From: Bradyrhizobium sp. CCBAU 53421
GTDB lineage: Bacteria; Pseudomonadota; Alphaproteobacteria; Rhizobiales; Xanthobacteraceae
Length of the DNA stretch: 64,000 bases
Assembly: GCF_015291625.1 (NCBI RefSeq)
Contig: NZ_CP030047.1
Coordinates: forward strand, 4,650,001 to 4,714,000
Reading direction: 5' to 3'
The translations under genes and the position numbers were made by a program. Under the pieces are notes generated by a model. The model was given only the letters and a program-made list of their open reading frames with translations, was not told the origin of the DNA and searched no databases. Shown piece after piece: positions 16,692 through 23,111 of the stretch. The first letter of the stretch is position 1. Each line of letters opens with the position of its first letter.

Positions 16692-17933
16692 TCAGCAGCG
16701 CGCGGGCTCGCCGACCATGTCGGGCTGACGCCTGAGCGACACCGCGGGCGACATCAGGATCACCAGCGCCTGCGCCGCAAAGATTGCGGCCGCGAGGTAG
16801 AGGCAGGCTTCGGCGCCGTAGAGGCCACCGACGACGGCGCCGAGTGCGGATCCGAGCGGGCGGGCGCCGTAGCTCATGATGTTGATCGCGGAGACGCGGC
16901 CGAGCAGCGAGGGCGGCGTCACCGACTGCCTGAGCGTAGTTGTCGAGATCACCCACAGGATCGGGCCGACGCCGAGGAGGAAGAAGCCGAGCCCGGCGAG
17001 CAGCGGCGTCGCAATCCAGGTGGTCAGCGCCATCACGATCGCGGCGACGAGGCCGGTGACCGGGCCGAGCCCGATCACGGTGCCGAATGCCAGCCGCTTC
17101 ATGACGCGGGTTGCGAACAGCGCGCCGACCACCATGCCGACGCCGTACATCGCAAGCGTCGTGCCGACACCGGTTGCGCTGAGCCCGACATGGCGCACCG
17201 CATAGGGCACGAACACGGCGAGCAGCAGGAAGGACGCGGTGTTGAAGATGAACTGGGTGATGAACACCGGCCGCAGCAAGGCGTGATGCATGACGAAGGC
17301 CGCGCCTTCCTTGATGTCCTGCATCGGATGACGCCGCGGGGCAGGCTGGCGCGCCGGCTCATAGAGGCCGGCGAGCAGCACGACCGCGATCGCCGACAGC
17401 GCGGCGGCAAAGCCGAATGCGGGCGCGGCACCGACCCAGCCGACCAGCACGCCGCCAAGCGCGGGTCCGCTGGCGAAAGCGACGGTGCGCGCAAGTTCGA
17501 TACGGGCATTCGCGGCCGGCAATTGCTGCGACGTCACCAGCGACGGGACCAGCGCAGGAGCTGCGACGCTGTAGGCGACCGTGCCGCAGACCGCGATGAA
17601 GCCGAGCAAGGCCAGCAGCGGCAGTGTCATCAGGCCGAACCCCAGCAACAGCAGAATCGCGGCCAATGCCGCCGCGCGCAGCGCCTCGGAGCCCGCCATC
17701 ACCCAGCGCCGCGACACACGGTCGGCCAAGAGGCCGGCGGGAATCGCAAACAGGATGAAAGGCAGCGTCAGTGCGGTCTGCAACAGGCCGGTCTGGCCTT
17801 CGCCGACGCCGAGCACCAGCACCGCGACGATGGGCGCGGCCGCAAGCGCGATCTGCTCGGCCGATTGTGCGGCGAGGTTGGACCAGGCCAGGCGATTGAA
17901 GGTGCTTGGCAAGCGAGGCGTATCGGCGGACAT
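16692..17933 (-). CDS. MFS transporter
   Basis: A 413-residue integral membrane protein with about 12 hydrophobic segments. It belongs to the enterobactin-exporter/MefA-like branch of the major facilitator superfamily. The loop GLLADRVSRRWVM near residue 60 corresponds to the MFS motif between segments 2 and 3. The substrate cannot be assigned; the branch commonly exports drugs or small metabolites. ATG 17933 (MSADTPRLPST) was chosen because AGGGA lies upstream; the longer frame adds a gene-unlike leader. Confidence 0.85.
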   Translation of the reverse strand: MSADTPRLPSTFNRLAWSNLAAQSAEQIALAAAPIVAVLVLGVGEGQTGLLQTALTLPFILFAIPAGLLADRVSRRWVMAGSEALRAAALAAILLLLGFGLMTLPLLALLGFIAVCGTVAYSVAAPALVPSLVTSQQLPAANARIELARTVAFASGPALGGVLVGWVGAAPAFGFAAALSAIAVVLLAGLYEPARQPAPRRHPMQDIKEGAAFVMHHALLRPVFITQFIFNTASFLLLAVFVPYAVRHVGLSATGVGTTLAMYGVGMVVGALFATRVMKRLAFGTVIGLGPVTGLVAAIVMALTTWIATPLLAGLGFFLLGVGPILWVISTTTLRQSVTPPSLLGRVSAINIMSYGARPLGSALGAVVGGLYGAEACLYLAAAIFAAQALVILMSPAVSLRRQPDMVGEPARC

Positions 17934-18010
17934 GGCAGAATCCCTGGAAAATTCGACTGCCTTTAGTGTGTGTTTGGAAGACGTCCGATCCCACCCGTTT
18001 CCCGACAACA

Positions 18011-18046
18011 CAAAAACAAAGGCCCGCCGGGAGAGGCGGGCCTTGT
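18011..18046 (-). terminator. rho-independent terminator of the flotillin operon
   Basis: A perfect 10-bp stem (18019-18028 with 18035-18044), read on the minus strand, is followed by TTTGTTTTTG. It lies just after the flotillin stop. Confidence 0.85.
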
Positions 18047-18071
18047 CGCTGATATCAGAAGCGCAGTCACG

Positions 18072-19823
18072 TCATTGCGGCGTGGGCGCGAGCTGGCCGG
18101 TGATGGTACCGACTAATGTGGCGGGCCGACTGTCCTCGCTGGTTGCAGGCGCCTCGGCCTTGCGCTGCGCCAGCGCGCTGGTCAGGCTGGTGAGCGCGTC
18201 GGATCCGGCCGGGAAGCCCGCCTCCGAGAGGATCTTGTCGATCATCGGCTTGAATGCCGAGACCGACAGCAATTGCGCGGCGAGGCCGTCGCCGAGCCCA
18301 AGACCGCCATTGCCCCCGCCATTGCCGTTGGCGTGGCCGTTGGCGCCGCCGCGGCCAAGCATGCTGCCGGTGTCGAAGATCCGGATGTCGGAGATCTTCT
18401 CGATCGGCTTCACTGCCTCGGCGAGCGCGCTCGGGATCACGTTGATCCGGGCGAGGTTGAGATCGTAGTCGATCATCTCGGCGCTCAGCTTGTTGCGCGC
18501 CTCCGCCTTCATCGTCGCGACTTCCGCTTCGGCCTGGCCGAGCGCCTTGACGCCGGCGGCGCGGGTGGTGGCGGCTGCCGCGTCGGCCTTGGCGAGTACG
18601 TTGGTGGCTTCCGCCTTGTTGGCGGCGGCCTGACGTTCCGCCTCGGCCATGACCGTGATCGGCATCGCGTCGGTTTCGGCTGCCTTGCGCGCCGCGATCA
18701 CGTTGATGATCTTGTCACGCTCTGCGATCTCGGTGGCGCGGGCGGTGGTGACCTTTTCTTCCGCCGCGATCGCGACGGCACGCGCGGTCTCGGCGATGGT
18801 CTGGGCCTCCGACTGCTCCTTGCTCTTGGCCGCGACGGCGATCGCGCTTTCCTGCGCGACGATCTGAAGGTCGCGCTCCATCTCGGTATTGCGCCGCTTG
18901 ACCGCGAGATCGGCCTCGATCTTGCGGGTGTCGCGGGCCTGGTTGGCCTCGGTCTGCTTGTTGGCGACCGCGAGCTCCTGCTGGATGCGGTATTCGGCCT
19001 CGTTCTGCAACGCGGTCTGCTCGACCTGCGCGGTCTGCGCGCGCATCGCGGCGGTCTTGTTGGCGATGTCGCGCTGCTGGGCGAGCTCGGCCTCGCGCTT
19101 GGTGCTTTCGATCGTCAGCGTGGTCTGCCGCGCCACCAGGTCCTGCTGGGCGATATTGACCTCGGTGGTGCGGACGATCTGGTTGCGCTCCTGCTCACGC
19201 TCCTTGGTGATCTTGGTCAGCGTCGTCAGACCGTGCGCGTCGAAGAAGTTGCTCGGGTTGAAATGCTTGATGTCGCTCTGGTCGAGCTTGGTCAGCGACA
19301 CCGATTCGAGCTCGAGGCCGTTGTTCTGGATGTCGGCGCCGACCGCGTCCTGCACCGCCTTGACGAAGGTCGCACGCTGCTCCTGCAATTCCTCGAGGTT
19401 CATGGTGGCAGCGACCGAGCGCAGGCCGTCGACGAACTTGGCCTCGACCAGCTCGCGCAGCTCGGCGGCGTCGTTGGTGCGGTTGCCGAGCGTCTGTGCG
19501 GCGAGTGCGATCGACGAACTATCGGGTTTGACGCGCAGATAGAACTCGGCGCCAATGTCGACGCGCATACGATCCTTAGTGATCAGCGAGTCCGGGCCGC
19601 CGCGCGCGACCTCGAGCCGCAGTGTCTTCAGGTTCACCGCGGCGGTGGAGTGGAAGATCGGCAGCACCAGCGAGCCGCCGTCGAGCACCACCTTCTGGCC
19701 GCCGAGGCCGGTGCGGACATAGGCCTCATCGCGCGTCGAGCGCTTGTAGAGCTTTGCGAAGAGCAGACCGATGACGAGAATGGCAATGACGCCAATGACG
19801 ACGGGTATAGCAAGTTCCCACAT
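18072..19823 (-). CDS. flotillin family protein (YqiK-like)
   Basis: A 583-residue membrane scaffold protein. One N-terminal membrane segment (about 5-24) is followed by an SPHF/PHB domain (about 30-200) and a long coiled coil rich in Ala/Glu (about 210-460). A Gly/Asn-rich linker and a 90-residue C-terminal region follow. Flotillins organise ordered membrane microdomains. Together with the YqiJ-like gene 3 bp upstream it matches the E. coli yqiJ-yqiK pair, and a PspA-type gene precedes both, so the operon probably serves membrane integrity under envelope stress. Confidence 0.92.
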   Translation of the reverse strand: MWELAIPVVIGVIAILVIGLLFAKLYKRSTRDEAYVRTGLGGQKVVLDGGSLVLPIFHSTAAVNLKTLRLEVARGGPDSLITKDRMRVDIGAEFYLRVKPDSSSIALAAQTLGNRTNDAAELRELVEAKFVDGLRSVAATMNLEELQEQRATFVKAVQDAVGADIQNNGLELESVSLTKLDQSDIKHFNPSNFFDAHGLTTLTKITKEREQERNQIVRTTEVNIAQQDLVARQTTLTIESTKREAELAQQRDIANKTAAMRAQTAQVEQTALQNEAEYRIQQELAVANKQTEANQARDTRKIEADLAVKRRNTEMERDLQIVAQESAIAVAAKSKEQSEAQTIAETARAVAIAAEEKVTTARATEIAERDKIINVIAARKAAETDAMPITVMAEAERQAAANKAEATNVLAKADAAAATTRAAGVKALGQAEAEVATMKAEARNKLSAEMIDYDLNLARINVIPSALAEAVKPIEKISDIRIFDTGSMLGRGGANGHANGNGGGNGGLGLGDGLAAQLLSVSAFKPMIDKILSEAGFPAGSDALTSLTSALAQRKAEAPATSEDSRPATLVGTITGQLAPTPQ

Positions 19824-19826
19824 GTG

Positions 19827-20489
19827 TTATGCCCTGTTGGAAGATTGTCGTTGTTCGACGAGGTCGGAAGGAGCGGCGATCGCGATGAAGCCTTTGGCGT
19901 CGCGATCGACGAGCAGCACGCTGGCGCCGACCGGCAATGCCTCGGACTCGGCGCTGGCACGCGCCGGCACGGTGTGCCAGTTGCCGAAGACATCCTTGAG
20001 ACGGACCCTGCCGGGCAGGCCCTGATCGAGCGGGCCGACCGACACCGTTGCGACCTTGCCGACGAAGTCGCTGTCGTTGACCGCATAGCTCTCGTCGCGC
20101 GGAATGATGCGGGCGATGCCGCGGCTCGCATTTCTGATCACGGGGATGCTGCCGGCGGCGGCAACCACCGCGGCAAGCGAGACCGGGATGGCGGTGCCTG
20201 CGGCATGCGCCAGTCCCTGAAGCAGGAAGCCTCCGATCGAGAATATGCCAAGTATCAGGATGATCAGGATCAGGAGGGGAAGCCGCCCGGCGTTGATCCA
20301 GAGAAACAGGCCACTGAGAGCATTGTGGCTCTCGGCCTCGACCGCGAAATCCTTGCCGATGAGTTCGCTGATCGAAAGTCCGATCATGGTGGACAGCAAT
20401 TCGATCCCGCCAAGTGTCACCATGATCGCAGCCGCGACCGCAAAGGGCCGCACGTCCGGGGCGAGCAGGATGTCGCCAACTGCACTCAT
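19827..20489 (-). CDS. YqiJ-like inner-membrane protein with OB-fold domain
   Basis: A 220-residue protein with three or four hydrophobic segments (about 12-40, 62-88 and 96-112). A soluble C-terminal OB/NfeD-like beta domain follows (about 135-205: GKVATVSVGPLDQGLPGRV and GASVLLVDRD). NfeD and YqiJ proteins are partners of flotillins and stomatins and are nearly always encoded beside them, as here. It overlaps the upstream PspA-type gene by 4 bp (ATGA) and sits 3 bp before flotillin, so the three genes should be one translationally coupled operon. Confidence 0.85.
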   Translation of the reverse strand: MSAVGDILLAPDVRPFAVAAAIMVTLGGIELLSTMIGLSISELIGKDFAVEAESHNALSGLFLWINAGRLPLLILIILILGIFSIGGFLLQGLAHAAGTAIPVSLAAVVAAAGSIPVIRNASRGIARIIPRDESYAVNDSDFVGKVATVSVGPLDQGLPGRVRLKDVFGNWHTVPARASAESEALPVGASVLLVDRDAKGFIAIAAPSDLVEQRQSSNRA

Positions 20490-21616
20490 TTTTCTGACTT
20501 GATCCTTTCAAGCCGCGCCGCGATTTCCTTTTCGCGGTGCAGGCGATCGAGTTCGTCAAGCTCCTTGTCGCCGAGCACGCTTGCAGCGGGAACACCGGTA
20601 ACCCGGGCGATCGCCGCCATGGCGCGTTCAGCACTCAATGTATTGGTCGTCGATGGGGCCCGGCTGGTTTCGTCGTTGGCCTCGCGGATCAGACTTTGTT
20701 CGAGATCGGCTAGCCGCGTCTCCGCCTCGCGGCGCGCGCCGAGCATGGCCTGCAGCGCCTTGGTCTGCTCGTCGATCTCAAGCTCGATGAAATCCATCGC
20801 GCGTTCCAGCGCGATCACCTGCGACTCCAGGTCGATTTGCCGTGCGACGCCGGCGCGCGCGAGATCCTCGCGATTTTCCGCAAGTGCGAGACGGATCTTC
20901 TCGTTCAGACCAGCCGTCTCGGTATCCAGTTCTTCGCGCCGCCTCTTCAAGCGGAATTCCTCGGCGCGCGACTTGCCGAGCGCATAGCGCGCCTCGTCGG
21001 CGCCGGCGTCGATCTCGCGGATCGCCTGTTTGACCAGCGCGACCTTGTTGTTGCTCTCGACGTTGTCGATGGTCTGGCTCGCGATGGCGGCAAGAAGCCG
21101 GCCCATGCGCGCAAGGATGCCTTCGTGAAGCATGGTCTTCTCCTCCGGTTGTGCTGATTTCGATTTGACGGCGATGTGGATTTCGTAGCCGCGTCCATCC
21201 GAGATCAAATGCGCCGGGAAGGGGCTTTCCCAGCCCGAGACATATCCCGGCACGTCGAACGGCACCAAGACGCGTCCGCTGACAGTGCTAATGGTCAGTG
21301 AAGTTGGGCCCTTGATCGCGAACAACTTGTCGTCGAGCGGTATCCGGCGGACGGCGGCGCCGGCGATGTAGTTGGCGCGGTCGCGCAGGCCGAGCGTCAC
21401 CAGCCGCGCGGGCAGGCCGGTCTCCTTGCGGATCCTCTCATAGGCCTGGGCGTGCAGCGAGACGAGGTTGGCGCCGACGGGAGCGACCTCGGCGAGGATC
21501 TCCATCATCCGGACATAGGCCGCAAAGGTCGCCTCGATCGCCGCGATGCCCGATAGGTCGGGGGCGAGGGCGTAGCGCAGCGTTGCGGTTGGCGTCTCGA
21601 CGGGCAGCTTGATCAT
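20486..21616 (-). CDS. PspA/IM30 protein with TnpB-like N-terminal domain
   Basis: A 376-residue frame made of two unrelated parts. Residues about 11-155 resemble the non-catalytic N-terminal part of TnpB (IS200/IS605 OrfB): an alpha-helical lead, a LHAQAYERIRKETGLPARL helix, then beta strands around ISTVSGRVLVPF and HLISDGRGYEIHIAV. The RuvC nuclease half is absent. Residues 162-376 are a coiled-coil PspA/IM30 (YjfJ-like) protein, from MLHEGILARMGRLLAAIAS onward. PspA proteins coat and repair damaged inner membrane. ATG 21616 was preferred over GTG 21634, which lies inside a palindrome. A strong Shine-Dalgarno before Met162 (21133) may also give a separate 215-residue PspA. Operon with YqiJ-like and flotillin genes. 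Confidence 0.8.
   Translation of the reverse strand: MIKLPVETPTATLRYALAPDLSGIAAIEATFAAYVRMMEILAEVAPVGANLVSLHAQAYERIRKETGLPARLVTLGLRDRANYIAGAAVRRIPLDDKLFAIKGPTSLTISTVSGRVLVPFDVPGYVSGWESPFPAHLISDGRGYEIHIAVKSKSAQPEEKTMLHEGILARMGRLLAAIASQTIDNVESNNKVALVKQAIREIDAGADEARYALGKSRAEEFRLKRRREELDTETAGLNEKIRLALAENREDLARAGVARQIDLESQVIALERAMDFIELEIDEQTKALQAMLGARREAETRLADLEQSLIREANDETSRAPSTTNTLSAERAMAAIARVTGVPAASVLGDKELDELDRLHREKEIAARLERIKSEK
21133..21147 (-). promoter_or_regulatory. internal Shine-Dalgarno and alternative start of PspA
   Basis: On the minus strand GGAGGAGAAGACC immediately precedes an in-frame ATG at 21133. This is the best ribosome-binding site in the operon and lies exactly at the border between the TnpB-like and PspA parts. 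Confidence 0.65.
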
Positions 21617-21625
21617 GCTTCTAAC

Positions 21626-21650
21626 GTAAAGCACTTCTTCAGTGCTTTAC
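21626..21650. promoter_or_regulatory. 10-bp palindrome, candidate operator of the PspA-flotillin operon
   Basis: GTAAAGCACT and AGTGCTTTAC form a perfect inverted repeat with a 5-nt spacer, ending 10 bp before the ATG at 21616. It lies between the two divergent genes. Confidence 0.55.
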
Positions 21651-21691
21651 AAGATCGGCGGCTGGTATCATTTTCGTGAGGCCAGATGCAG

Positions 21692-21708
21692 TTGCAAATG
21701 AGTTGCAA
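21692..21708. promoter_or_regulatory. candidate Mur (Fur-family) operator of mntH
   Basis: TTGCAA-ATGAG-TTGCAA contains the perfect palindrome TGCAA-N5-TTGCA, 30 bp before the mntH start. It resembles the manganese-responsive sequences reported for rhizobial Mur. Mur regulation of mntH is known in Bradyrhizobium; the site itself is inferred. Confidence 0.6.
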
Positions 21709-21737
21709 TAACGAGTCAGATCAGCCATCCTTGAGAG

Positions 21738-23111
21738 ATGGATGCTCGGACCCCTGAAATGTCTCCCGTTTCCGTTGCCGACACCGTGCCGGGAGGCTGG
21801 CGCGATGACGCCGGGCATGCGCGCAGCCTTCCCGAGGTCAATGCGACCGTTCGCGTGCCGAGCACGGGCGTCTGGTGGCGGCGGCTGCTGGCCTTCGCCG
21901 GGCCCGGCTACCTGGTCTCGGTCGGCTATATGGACCCCGGCAACTGGGCGACCGATCTCGCGGGCGGGTCGAAGTTCGGCTATACGCTGCTGTCCGTCAT
22001 CCTGCTTTCCAACCTGATGGCGATCCTGCTGCAGGCGCTCGCAGCACGGCTCGGCATCGCGACCGACCGCGACCTGGCGCAGGCTTGCCGCGCGACCTAT
22101 TCGCGACCGGTCAACTTGCTGCTGTGGCTCGCCTGCGAGGCCGCGATCATCGCCTGCGACCTCGCCGAGGTGATCGGCACCGCGATCGCGCTGAAGCTCT
22201 TGTTCGGCATTCCCCTGATCGGCGGCGCGCTGCTCGCGGCGCTCGACGCGTTCCTGCTGCTGCTCCTGATGAACCGCGGCTTCCGCTTCCTCGAAGCCTT
22301 CGTGATCGCACTGCTGATCGTCATCGCGGTCTGCTTCGTGGTCCAGATCGCCGCCGCTGCGCCGCCGATTGCCGGCGTGATCGGCGGCTTCATGCCGTCG
22401 CGCGAGATCGTCACCAATCCCGAAATGCTCTACATTGCGATCGGCATCATCGGCGCCACCGTGATGCCGCATAATCTCTATCTGCACTCATCGATCGTGC
22501 AGACCCGCGCCTATCCGCGCACCGAGGCGGGCCGGCGCGACGCGATCAAATGGGCGACCACCGACTCCACCATCGCGCTGATGCTGGCGCTGTTCGTCAA
22601 TGCCGCGATCCTGGTGCTGGCGGCCGCGACCTTCCACAAGAGCGGCCATTCCGACGTCGCCGAGATCGATCAGGCCTTCGAACTGCTGTCGCCGCTGCTC
22701 GGCCTCGGCATCGCCTCGACGCTGTTTGCCGTGGCGCTGCTGGCGTCTGGCCTCAACTCGACGGTGACGGCGACGCTGGCCGGCCAGATCGTGATGCAGG
22801 GCTTTCTCGACCTCAAGCTGCCCGACTGGCTGCAGCGGCTGGTGACCCGCGGCATCGCGATCATCCCCGTCATCGTGGTCGCCGCGCTCTATGGCGAGAG
22901 CGGCACCGCGCAGCTCTTGGTGTTCAGCCAGGTCGTGCTGTCGATGCAGCTGCCGTTCGCGGTGATCCCGCTGGTGCGCTTCGTGTCCGACAAGCGCAAG
23001 ATGGGCGCATTCGCGATCTCGCGTCCGGTTGCGGTGGCGGCGTGGATCGTCGCCGGCCTGATCGTGATCCTGAACGTGAAGCTGCTGATCGATACGCTGT
23101 TCGGCAGCTAG
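21738..23111 (+). CDS. mntH: Nramp-family manganese transporter
   Basis: A 457-residue proton-coupled divalent metal importer with 11-12 membrane segments. The metal-site motif DPGN sits in the first segment ([12 protein letters not shown], about residues 64-75) and MPHNLYLHS in the sixth (about 243-251). MntH is the main high-affinity Mn uptake system in Bradyrhizobium. The gene is divergent from the PspA-flotillin operon, and a candidate Mur site lies 30 bp before it. The start at 21738 follows TTGAGAG; the soluble 45-residue N-terminus is somewhat long for the family. Confidence 0.93.

Follow-up and report, generated by a model that had tools for sequence, protein, structure and literature searches.

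Gene content of the locus

The window analyzed here is a 64,000-nucleotide stretch of Bradyrhizobium sp. CCBAU 53421 (contig NZ_CP030047.1, positions 4,650,001 to 4,714,000, forward strand). It holds a gene whose predicted product joins a domain resembling part of TnpB (IS200/IS605 OrfB) to PspA/IM30 (Table 1). The open reading frame (ORF) 20486-21634 on the minus strand is a single frame of 382 codons, and its conserved start, the ATG at 21616, gives a protein of 376 amino acids, the length of most relatives among the 120 listed. The initial annotation had described one uninterrupted in-frame fusion, which the ORF bears out, and all the motifs that it quoted are found there. In a Pfam scan, the PspA part scored 43 bits against PF04012 (cut-off, 33.9), placing it in the PspA/IM30 family. 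In the structural model of the full-length protein (predicted local distance difference test, 75; predicted template modeling score, 0.41), a linker of low confidence at residues 153-168 connects two domains; coiled coils fill the list of its fold matches, among them Escherichia coli PspA (4whe). Genes for YqiJ and flotillin follow the fusion in one direction in all 73 intact loci of the contig scan described below, which is the layout of a phage shock protein (PSP)-flotillin operon.

Table 1. Coordinates of features in the window (position 1 is its first letter).
Feature	Position	Strand	Basis
Fused gene, 376 amino acids: TnpB-type REC+WED domain, then PspA/IM30	20486..21616	-	ORF and relatives
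N-terminal domain, 161 amino acids, TnpB REC+WED homologue without RuvC	21134..21616	-	
PspA/IM30 part, residues 162-376, 215 amino acids, from internal ATG	20486..21133	-	PF04012
Codons for LPARLVTLGLRD, residues 68-79, aligned with the helix of TnpB that reads the transposon-adjacent motif	21380..21415	-	
Operator-like palindrome GTAAAGCACT-TCTTC-AGTGCTTTAC, core AAAGCAC-N7-GTGCTTT at 21628-21648	21626..21650	.	
Predicted -35 element TTGTAA	21647..21652	-	Position frequencies, 28 representatives
Predicted -10 element TACGTT	21623..21628	-	Position frequencies, 28 representatives
Internal Shine-Dalgarno GGAGGAG, ahead of ATG at 21131-21133	21140..21146	-	
YqiJ-type membrane protein, 4-base overlap with the fusion	19827..20489	-	PF21001, PF07290
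Flotillin, YqiK type	18072..19823	-	PF15975, PF01145

The N-terminal domain resembles the REC and WED half of TnpB

TnpB is the ancestor of CRISPR-Cas12. The assignment of the N-terminal part to TnpB, made initially from the letters alone, holds when an AlphaFold model is searched against the PDB and when profiles are compared with those of 110 TnpBs. On the strength of this profile-profile test and the fold search, and not of any single match, the N-terminal domain is homologous to the REC+WED half of TnpB. Reversed profiles and the C-terminal half served as controls of the profile comparison; with both profiles reversed, the match returned at an expect value (E) of 1.3e-7, as expected. The match to a Mariprofundus TnpB (L112; E 6.7e-5) is modest taken alone: L112 was chosen from the matches that 398 genomes, each searched at E up to 0.01, had given, and two of these matches, L112 and the esterase-like L113, lay outside the domain family of the fusion.

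That no RuvC domain follows and a PspA does, as the initial annotation had stated, agrees with the Pfam scan of the full protein, which finds PspA_IM30 and neither the OrfB_IS605 (RuvC) model, at E up to 10, nor the TNB zinc-ribbon; in the control, both models were found in the L112 TnpB (E up to 1). Residues 1-161 have no fitting Pfam or NCBIfam model, and a PDB sequence search with them returned chance matches only. HTH_OrfB_IS605 is matched by 4 of 27 members (best E 0.094), which is a hint only, because Abhydrolase_3 is matched by equally many (4 of 27; best E 0.073).

In ISDra2 TnpB, residues Y52, S56, K76, F77, and Q80 are involved in reading the transposon-adjacent motif (TAM), according to excerpts of PMC10097598. 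We infer that residues 68-79 of the fusion correspond, via the L112 TnpB, to the ISDra2 helix whose K76, F77, and Q80 read the TAM. Ala70-Arg71-Thr74 were mapped to K76-F77-Q80 by hand through P0237, gapless as far as the AYK motif; profile mapping onto the ISDra2 residues failed (E 0.18).

The fusion is conserved across rhizobia

A scan of GTDB contigs, with peptide patterns drawn from both halves of the window's protein and hence a biased sample, yielded 75 loci with identity down to ~50%, from Bradyrhizobium, Rhizobium, Pararhizobium, Neorhizobium, Ensifer, Endobacterium, and others. Of these 75 loci, which come from named genomes, 73 keep one intact frame through the TnpB-type domain and PspA; of the remaining two, L035 is cut by a contig end and L076 is broken. 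The closest named homologues come from Bradyrhizobium, the best being 96% identical over the part searched and named B. elkanii. The same two-domain protein, which the initial annotation had marked out for a search in other Rhizobiales, recurs there: among 397 genomes of the order, 27 matched (the window's own counted), comprising 24 intact fusions with open frames of 369-519 amino acids, one remnant of 75 amino acids, and two matches taken as chance. One of the latter, L101, is by eye an iron/siderophore-type binding protein; L102 covers the same span with nearly the same bits, and L101 alone of the two was read. The domain was also found in samples of the phylum (11 of 398 genomes, including the true TnpB L112 and the chance match L113) and the class (5 of 337), the window's own genome being counted in each. 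Samples of the families to which five members belong, which overlap those of the order, phylum, and class, gave 4/17, 6/89, 4/5, 8/75, and 1/15 genomes.

For the N-terminal part, the median ratio of nonsynonymous to synonymous substitution (dN/dS) was 0.122 in Bradyrhizobium and 0.167 in Rhizobium; the PspA part gave 0.117 and 0.092, respectively. Medians are quoted because ungapped pair comparison lets indels inflate some values, with at least one Bradyrhizobium pair reaching 2.5. By this measure, both halves of the fusion are under purifying selection. A chance open frame, which the initial annotation had allowed for, or a sequencing artifact is ruled out by the 73 of 75 intact loci together with the low dN/dS; as judged from sequence, the fusion is old and selected.

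Two observations stand beside these counts. At L076:5827-6298, in Bradyrhizobium ivorense, a broken remnant of the fusion is followed by an open YqiJ frame, behind which the flotillin begins. In six genomes of the window's genus (L079-L082, L084, and L085), the domain is only 59-62% identical to that of the window, hinting at transfer or an old duplicate.

A palindrome overlaps the predicted promoter

Upstream of the fusion lies a palindrome whose 10-base pair (bp) arms are perfect in the window. It was followed in a 114-row locus set from which the window's own copy and re-fetched duplicates were left out; the set keeps at least three pairs resembling one genome from two collections (L018/L077, L038/L078, and L060/L086), L137 is cut by a contig end, and weights, representatives, and tree were based on identity clusters. 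Symmetry is complete (7 of 7 positions) in 80 of the 114 loci and reaches at least 6 positions in 108, a level that the same finder returned for 9.2% of shuffles and 23.7% of within-gene stretches. The palindrome overlaps a predicted -35 (TTGAAA/TTGTAA) and a predicted -10 element (consensus TATATT, 28 representatives) with a spacer of 17-18 bp. TTGN and TA[ACT]NN[AT] are each correctly placed in 101 of 113 loci, and an in-frame ATG or GTG follows 10-13 nucleotides past the palindrome in 112 of 113.

The exact palindrome occurs once in the 9.26-Mb genome of the window; at up to two mismatches there are 12 sites, equal to a control pattern. Across the order, it is present in 11 of 397 genomes, directly upstream of the fusion gene in 9 of them, and the control pattern is present in 5. 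The other 15 of the 24 intact-fusion genomes do not carry this exact form, and in divergent relatives the two arms change jointly, giving GGAC/GTCC, ACAC/GTGT, TGAC/GTCA, and GTAT-type forms.

Such a palindrome could also act as an RNA hairpin in the 5' leader, through which the domain would bind its own mRNA and control translation. At position 5 of the arms, T is paired with G in 10 of 114 loci, a pairing tolerable in RNA, but C faces A there in four loci. Moreover, the palindrome should stay untranscribed, because it sits between the promoter-like elements with the start codon 10-13 nucleotides after it, and a ribosome site on which such control could act is present at only 2 of 107 first ATGs. 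We therefore regard control at the mRNA as very unlikely.

Half-sites covary with residue 71 of the putative recognition helix

Covariation was assessed in 113 loci, leaving out L129, whose palindrome is ambiguous. Where residue 71 is Arg, position 5 of the half-sites is C in 184, T in 16, and G in none; where it is Gln, position 5 is G in 18, T in 8, and C in none. By normalized mutual information with position 5, column 71 is the top of the columns tested (0.76 versus 0.54 for the next). Column 55 and position 4 show the highest normalized covariation overall, but this signal comes from two single lineages and was set aside as evidence. In a tree from which the two helices were left out, covering 62 representatives, Arg/Gln changes occur three times and the palindrome follows in all three; among these, L087 carries Gln within an Arg clade and has a GGAC palindrome, and L131 and L142 carry Arg within a Gln clade and have a GCAC palindrome. 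Four changes placed randomly by branch length hit the three branches with P ~3e-4, a post hoc figure.

One locus separates the domain from PspA. At L131:1486-1962, on the minus strand, a complete domain gene with a GTG start stands without PspA directly ahead of YqiJ and flotillin, under the palindrome AAAGCAC-CCGATCG-GTGCTTT. No conserved neighboring regulator is seen, because the window (10-32 kb) and four distant loci (~13 kb each) share no ORF of at least 100 amino acids beyond the operon.

PspA works through protein contacts, and an unlinked transcription factor might bind the palindrome, with the TnpB-type domain serving PspA as a structural or a lipid/protein adaptor. That the tie between domain and palindrome comes from sequence comparison, and the covariation from three switches, leaves some room for this, but an unlinked factor sits poorly with an exact site that is unique in the genome, with half-sites that change with residue 71 at the TAM-helix position, and with L131, which keeps the domain and the same palindrome in the absence of PspA; the chance of coincident switches quoted above also speaks against it. 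We consider an adaptor role unlikely. The promoter palindrome, the way in which it covaries with the recognition helix, and the version lacking PspA instead favor the earlier suggestion of a nucleic acid-binding domain in control of the operon.

Two predicted translation starts

In 107 of 111 loci, the PspA Met follows a Shine-Dalgarno sequence of at least four bases; such a sequence stands before 86 of the 561 remaining internal Mets and before 2 of the 107 first ATGs. The PspA count covers 111 of 112 rows, L098 not having been recognized in it although its Shine-Dalgarno is present. Synonymous variation is very low at the junction, which has the lowest value of 374 windows in 37 Rhizobium-type loci. 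Among 370 windows in 35 Bradyrhizobium-type rows it ranks fourth, and the three windows with lower values are found 11-19 codons upstream. A second product, PspA alone, is expected from this internal start. The transcript would start at the A of the ATG at 21616, and the long form is probably translated leaderless, because the predicted -10 element ends 6 nucleotides before the first ATG. The internal start, the palindrome, and this probable leaderless start all go beyond the initial annotation.

In Bradyrhizobium, the low synonymous variation extends ~20 codons upstream of the internal ATG (21134-21193, minus strand), and codon -11 from this ATG is AAA in 35 of 35 rows. The stretch exceeds what a Shine-Dalgarno needs and perhaps marks a standby site or an internal promoter.

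Unfused relatives bear on whether the long protein is made at all. A PspA match was found in 17 of 259 genomes, 12 fused and 5 unfused. Three of these five unfused operons of the order open with a separate gene of 160-173 amino acids that precedes pspA, and YqiJ and flotillin come next (L162:2172-2681, L163:2165-2647, and L164:2171-2692, minus strand, for the separate gene). A fourth, L165, has YqiJ and flotillin with no separate gene in view, and in L166 neither YqiJ/flotillin nor a separate small gene is in view. One could suppose that the upstream frame of the fusion is likewise an independent gene that lost its stop, only the PspA from the internal ATG being functional; the strong, conserved internal ribosome site and the separate gene at the same spot in three of five unfused operons would fit. 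However, the frame stays open across the junction in all 73 intact loci, purifying selection acts on both halves, and any translation of the domain results in the fusion. Hence, the absence of a long product strikes us as barely credible. From its start, the separate gene of L162-L164 looked by eye like a ribbon-helix-helix protein, which found no support from Pfam, NCBIfam, or the PDB, where its matches are coiled-coil matches. The sequence ATACAAATGCATACATT lies upstream in both L162 and L164.

A candidate guide-free autorepressor

Together, these data suggest that the TnpB half may now be an on/off switch of its own operon. Starting from the parts that the sequence supports (homology, conservation, palindrome, promoter geometry, covariation, and internal start), we consider it likely that the gene encodes a guide-free, TnpB-derived autorepressor of the pspA-yqiJ-flotillin operon fused to PspA, plus a PspA-only product; DNA binding, a dimer, repression, release by stress, and the absence of a guide RNA are what we infer. 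The domesticated REC+WED half would work without RuvC and, most likely, without a guide RNA. A dimer of the domain would bind the promoter palindrome, its half-sites being read by the counterpart of TnpB's TAM-reading helix, and would keep RNA polymerase off the promoter; repression is likelier than activation because the 17-18-bp spacer is already optimal. When the membrane is stressed, PspA would relocate to it and draw the fused DNA-binding domain off the operator, inducing the operon, such that sensor, repressor, and effector would be one polypeptide. The long fusion would be made from the leaderless AUG, and PspA alone, made from the strong internal ribosome site, would allow membrane repair without repression. 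In Bacillus subtilis, an SPFH protein links PspA to the membrane (PMC8581546, in part), which fits the flotillin of this operon.

Several observations weigh against this reading. The Foldseek search against the PDB is weak (best E 5.4e-3, none at 1e-3), and the domain compared with the ISDra2 TnpB sequence alone is nonsignificant (E 0.18). Column 71 was selected after inspection, column 16 exceeds it in raw mutual information with position 5, and there are only three Arg/Gln switches, so few that an independent-pairs sign test (2-3 pairs, p 0.5) has no power. One further palindrome change, in L019, brings T into both half-sites under an unchanged Arg71. The palindrome of L142, a switched locus, ends 2 nucleotides ahead of the ATG rather than 10-13; in L129, the sole palindrome is imperfect and lies upstream of the promoter; and two genomes without the fusion gene hold the exact palindrome elsewhere. 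Four of the 111 internal starts have no Shine-Dalgarno of four bases, and the stress-release step draws on known PspA behavior. Lastly, the search for a guide RNA or omegaRNA gave only two subthreshold, unrelated Rfam matches in 17900-22200, and Rfam may not cover every omegaRNA.

This last point touches the idea that the domain, like TldR, still holds a guide RNA and finds its target by base pairing. Its WED is kept, and in TnpB the omegaRNA scaffold is held by WED together with RuvC (PMC10097598, in part). Here, the second scaffold holder, RuvC, is gone, the Rfam matches offer no candidate guide, and a conserved palindrome whose half-sites match a helix is a protein-read signal; we judge RNA guidance to be quite improbable.

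Relation to known systems

The guide-free reading sets the domain apart from its relatives. With TnpB, as in ISDra2 and Mariprofundus L112, it shares the REC+WED half, the order of elements, and a counterpart of the TAM-reading helix; it differs in that no RuvC, TNB zinc-ribbon, or (in Rfam) omegaRNA was found, in conserved neighbors that are not transposon genes, in the fusion to PspA, and in its presumed reading of a palindrome. TldR proteins, whose RuvC is inactivated, carry a guide RNA and find targets by base pairing (PMC13418256). Both are TnpB-derived, nuclease-less, and, here by proposal, repressors, but the RuvC is absent from the fusion, with no relic by Pfam, and its proposed target is its own promoter. 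Since no RuvC relic and, in Rfam only, no guide RNA was found, the domain is, on these searches, not TldR-like.

E. coli PspA inhibits a separate activator, PspF. There, as proposed here, PspA is linked to the regulation of transcription of the operon that encodes it; in our case, by contrast, the proposed DNA-binding part lies in the same chain. Excerpts of PMC11237479 describe the E. coli psp operon as well as an association of PspA, YqiJ, and flotillin, the same three functions in one operon, in which the partner is a CesT/Tir protein; the word "transposase" has no occurrence in the main text of that paper. Among open-licence PMC papers (bioRxiv lying outside this coverage), no report joins PspA with TnpB, and none of the matches listed describes a TnpB-type domain fused to PspA.

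TnpB-derived regulators (TldR, RNA-guided; PMC13418256, in part) and PSP operons are thus known, and guide-free operator binding, if proven, would define a new transcription factor family. We lean toward the broader view that the DNA-reading half of TnpB has become a free-standing, guide-independent family whose TAM-reading helix reads palindromic operators, the PspA fusion being a one-protein membrane-stress switch that also yields repressor-free PspA. If this is true, TAM recognition alone would have been exapted into ordinary sequence-specific DNA binding, and its specificity would be written in natural variants, Arg71 and Gln71 with their matching palindromes. Stress sensing would be simple as well, in that the membrane-binding protein encoded by the operon would contain the operon's repressor.

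On the other side of the fusion, the divergent mntH of the window is kept in only 29 of the 73 loci. Between the two genes, at 21684-21712, lie GCAACTCATTTGCAACTGCA repeats, present in 27 of 34 Bradyrhizobium-type loci, whose resemblance we take to be to a manganese (Mur) box for mntH.
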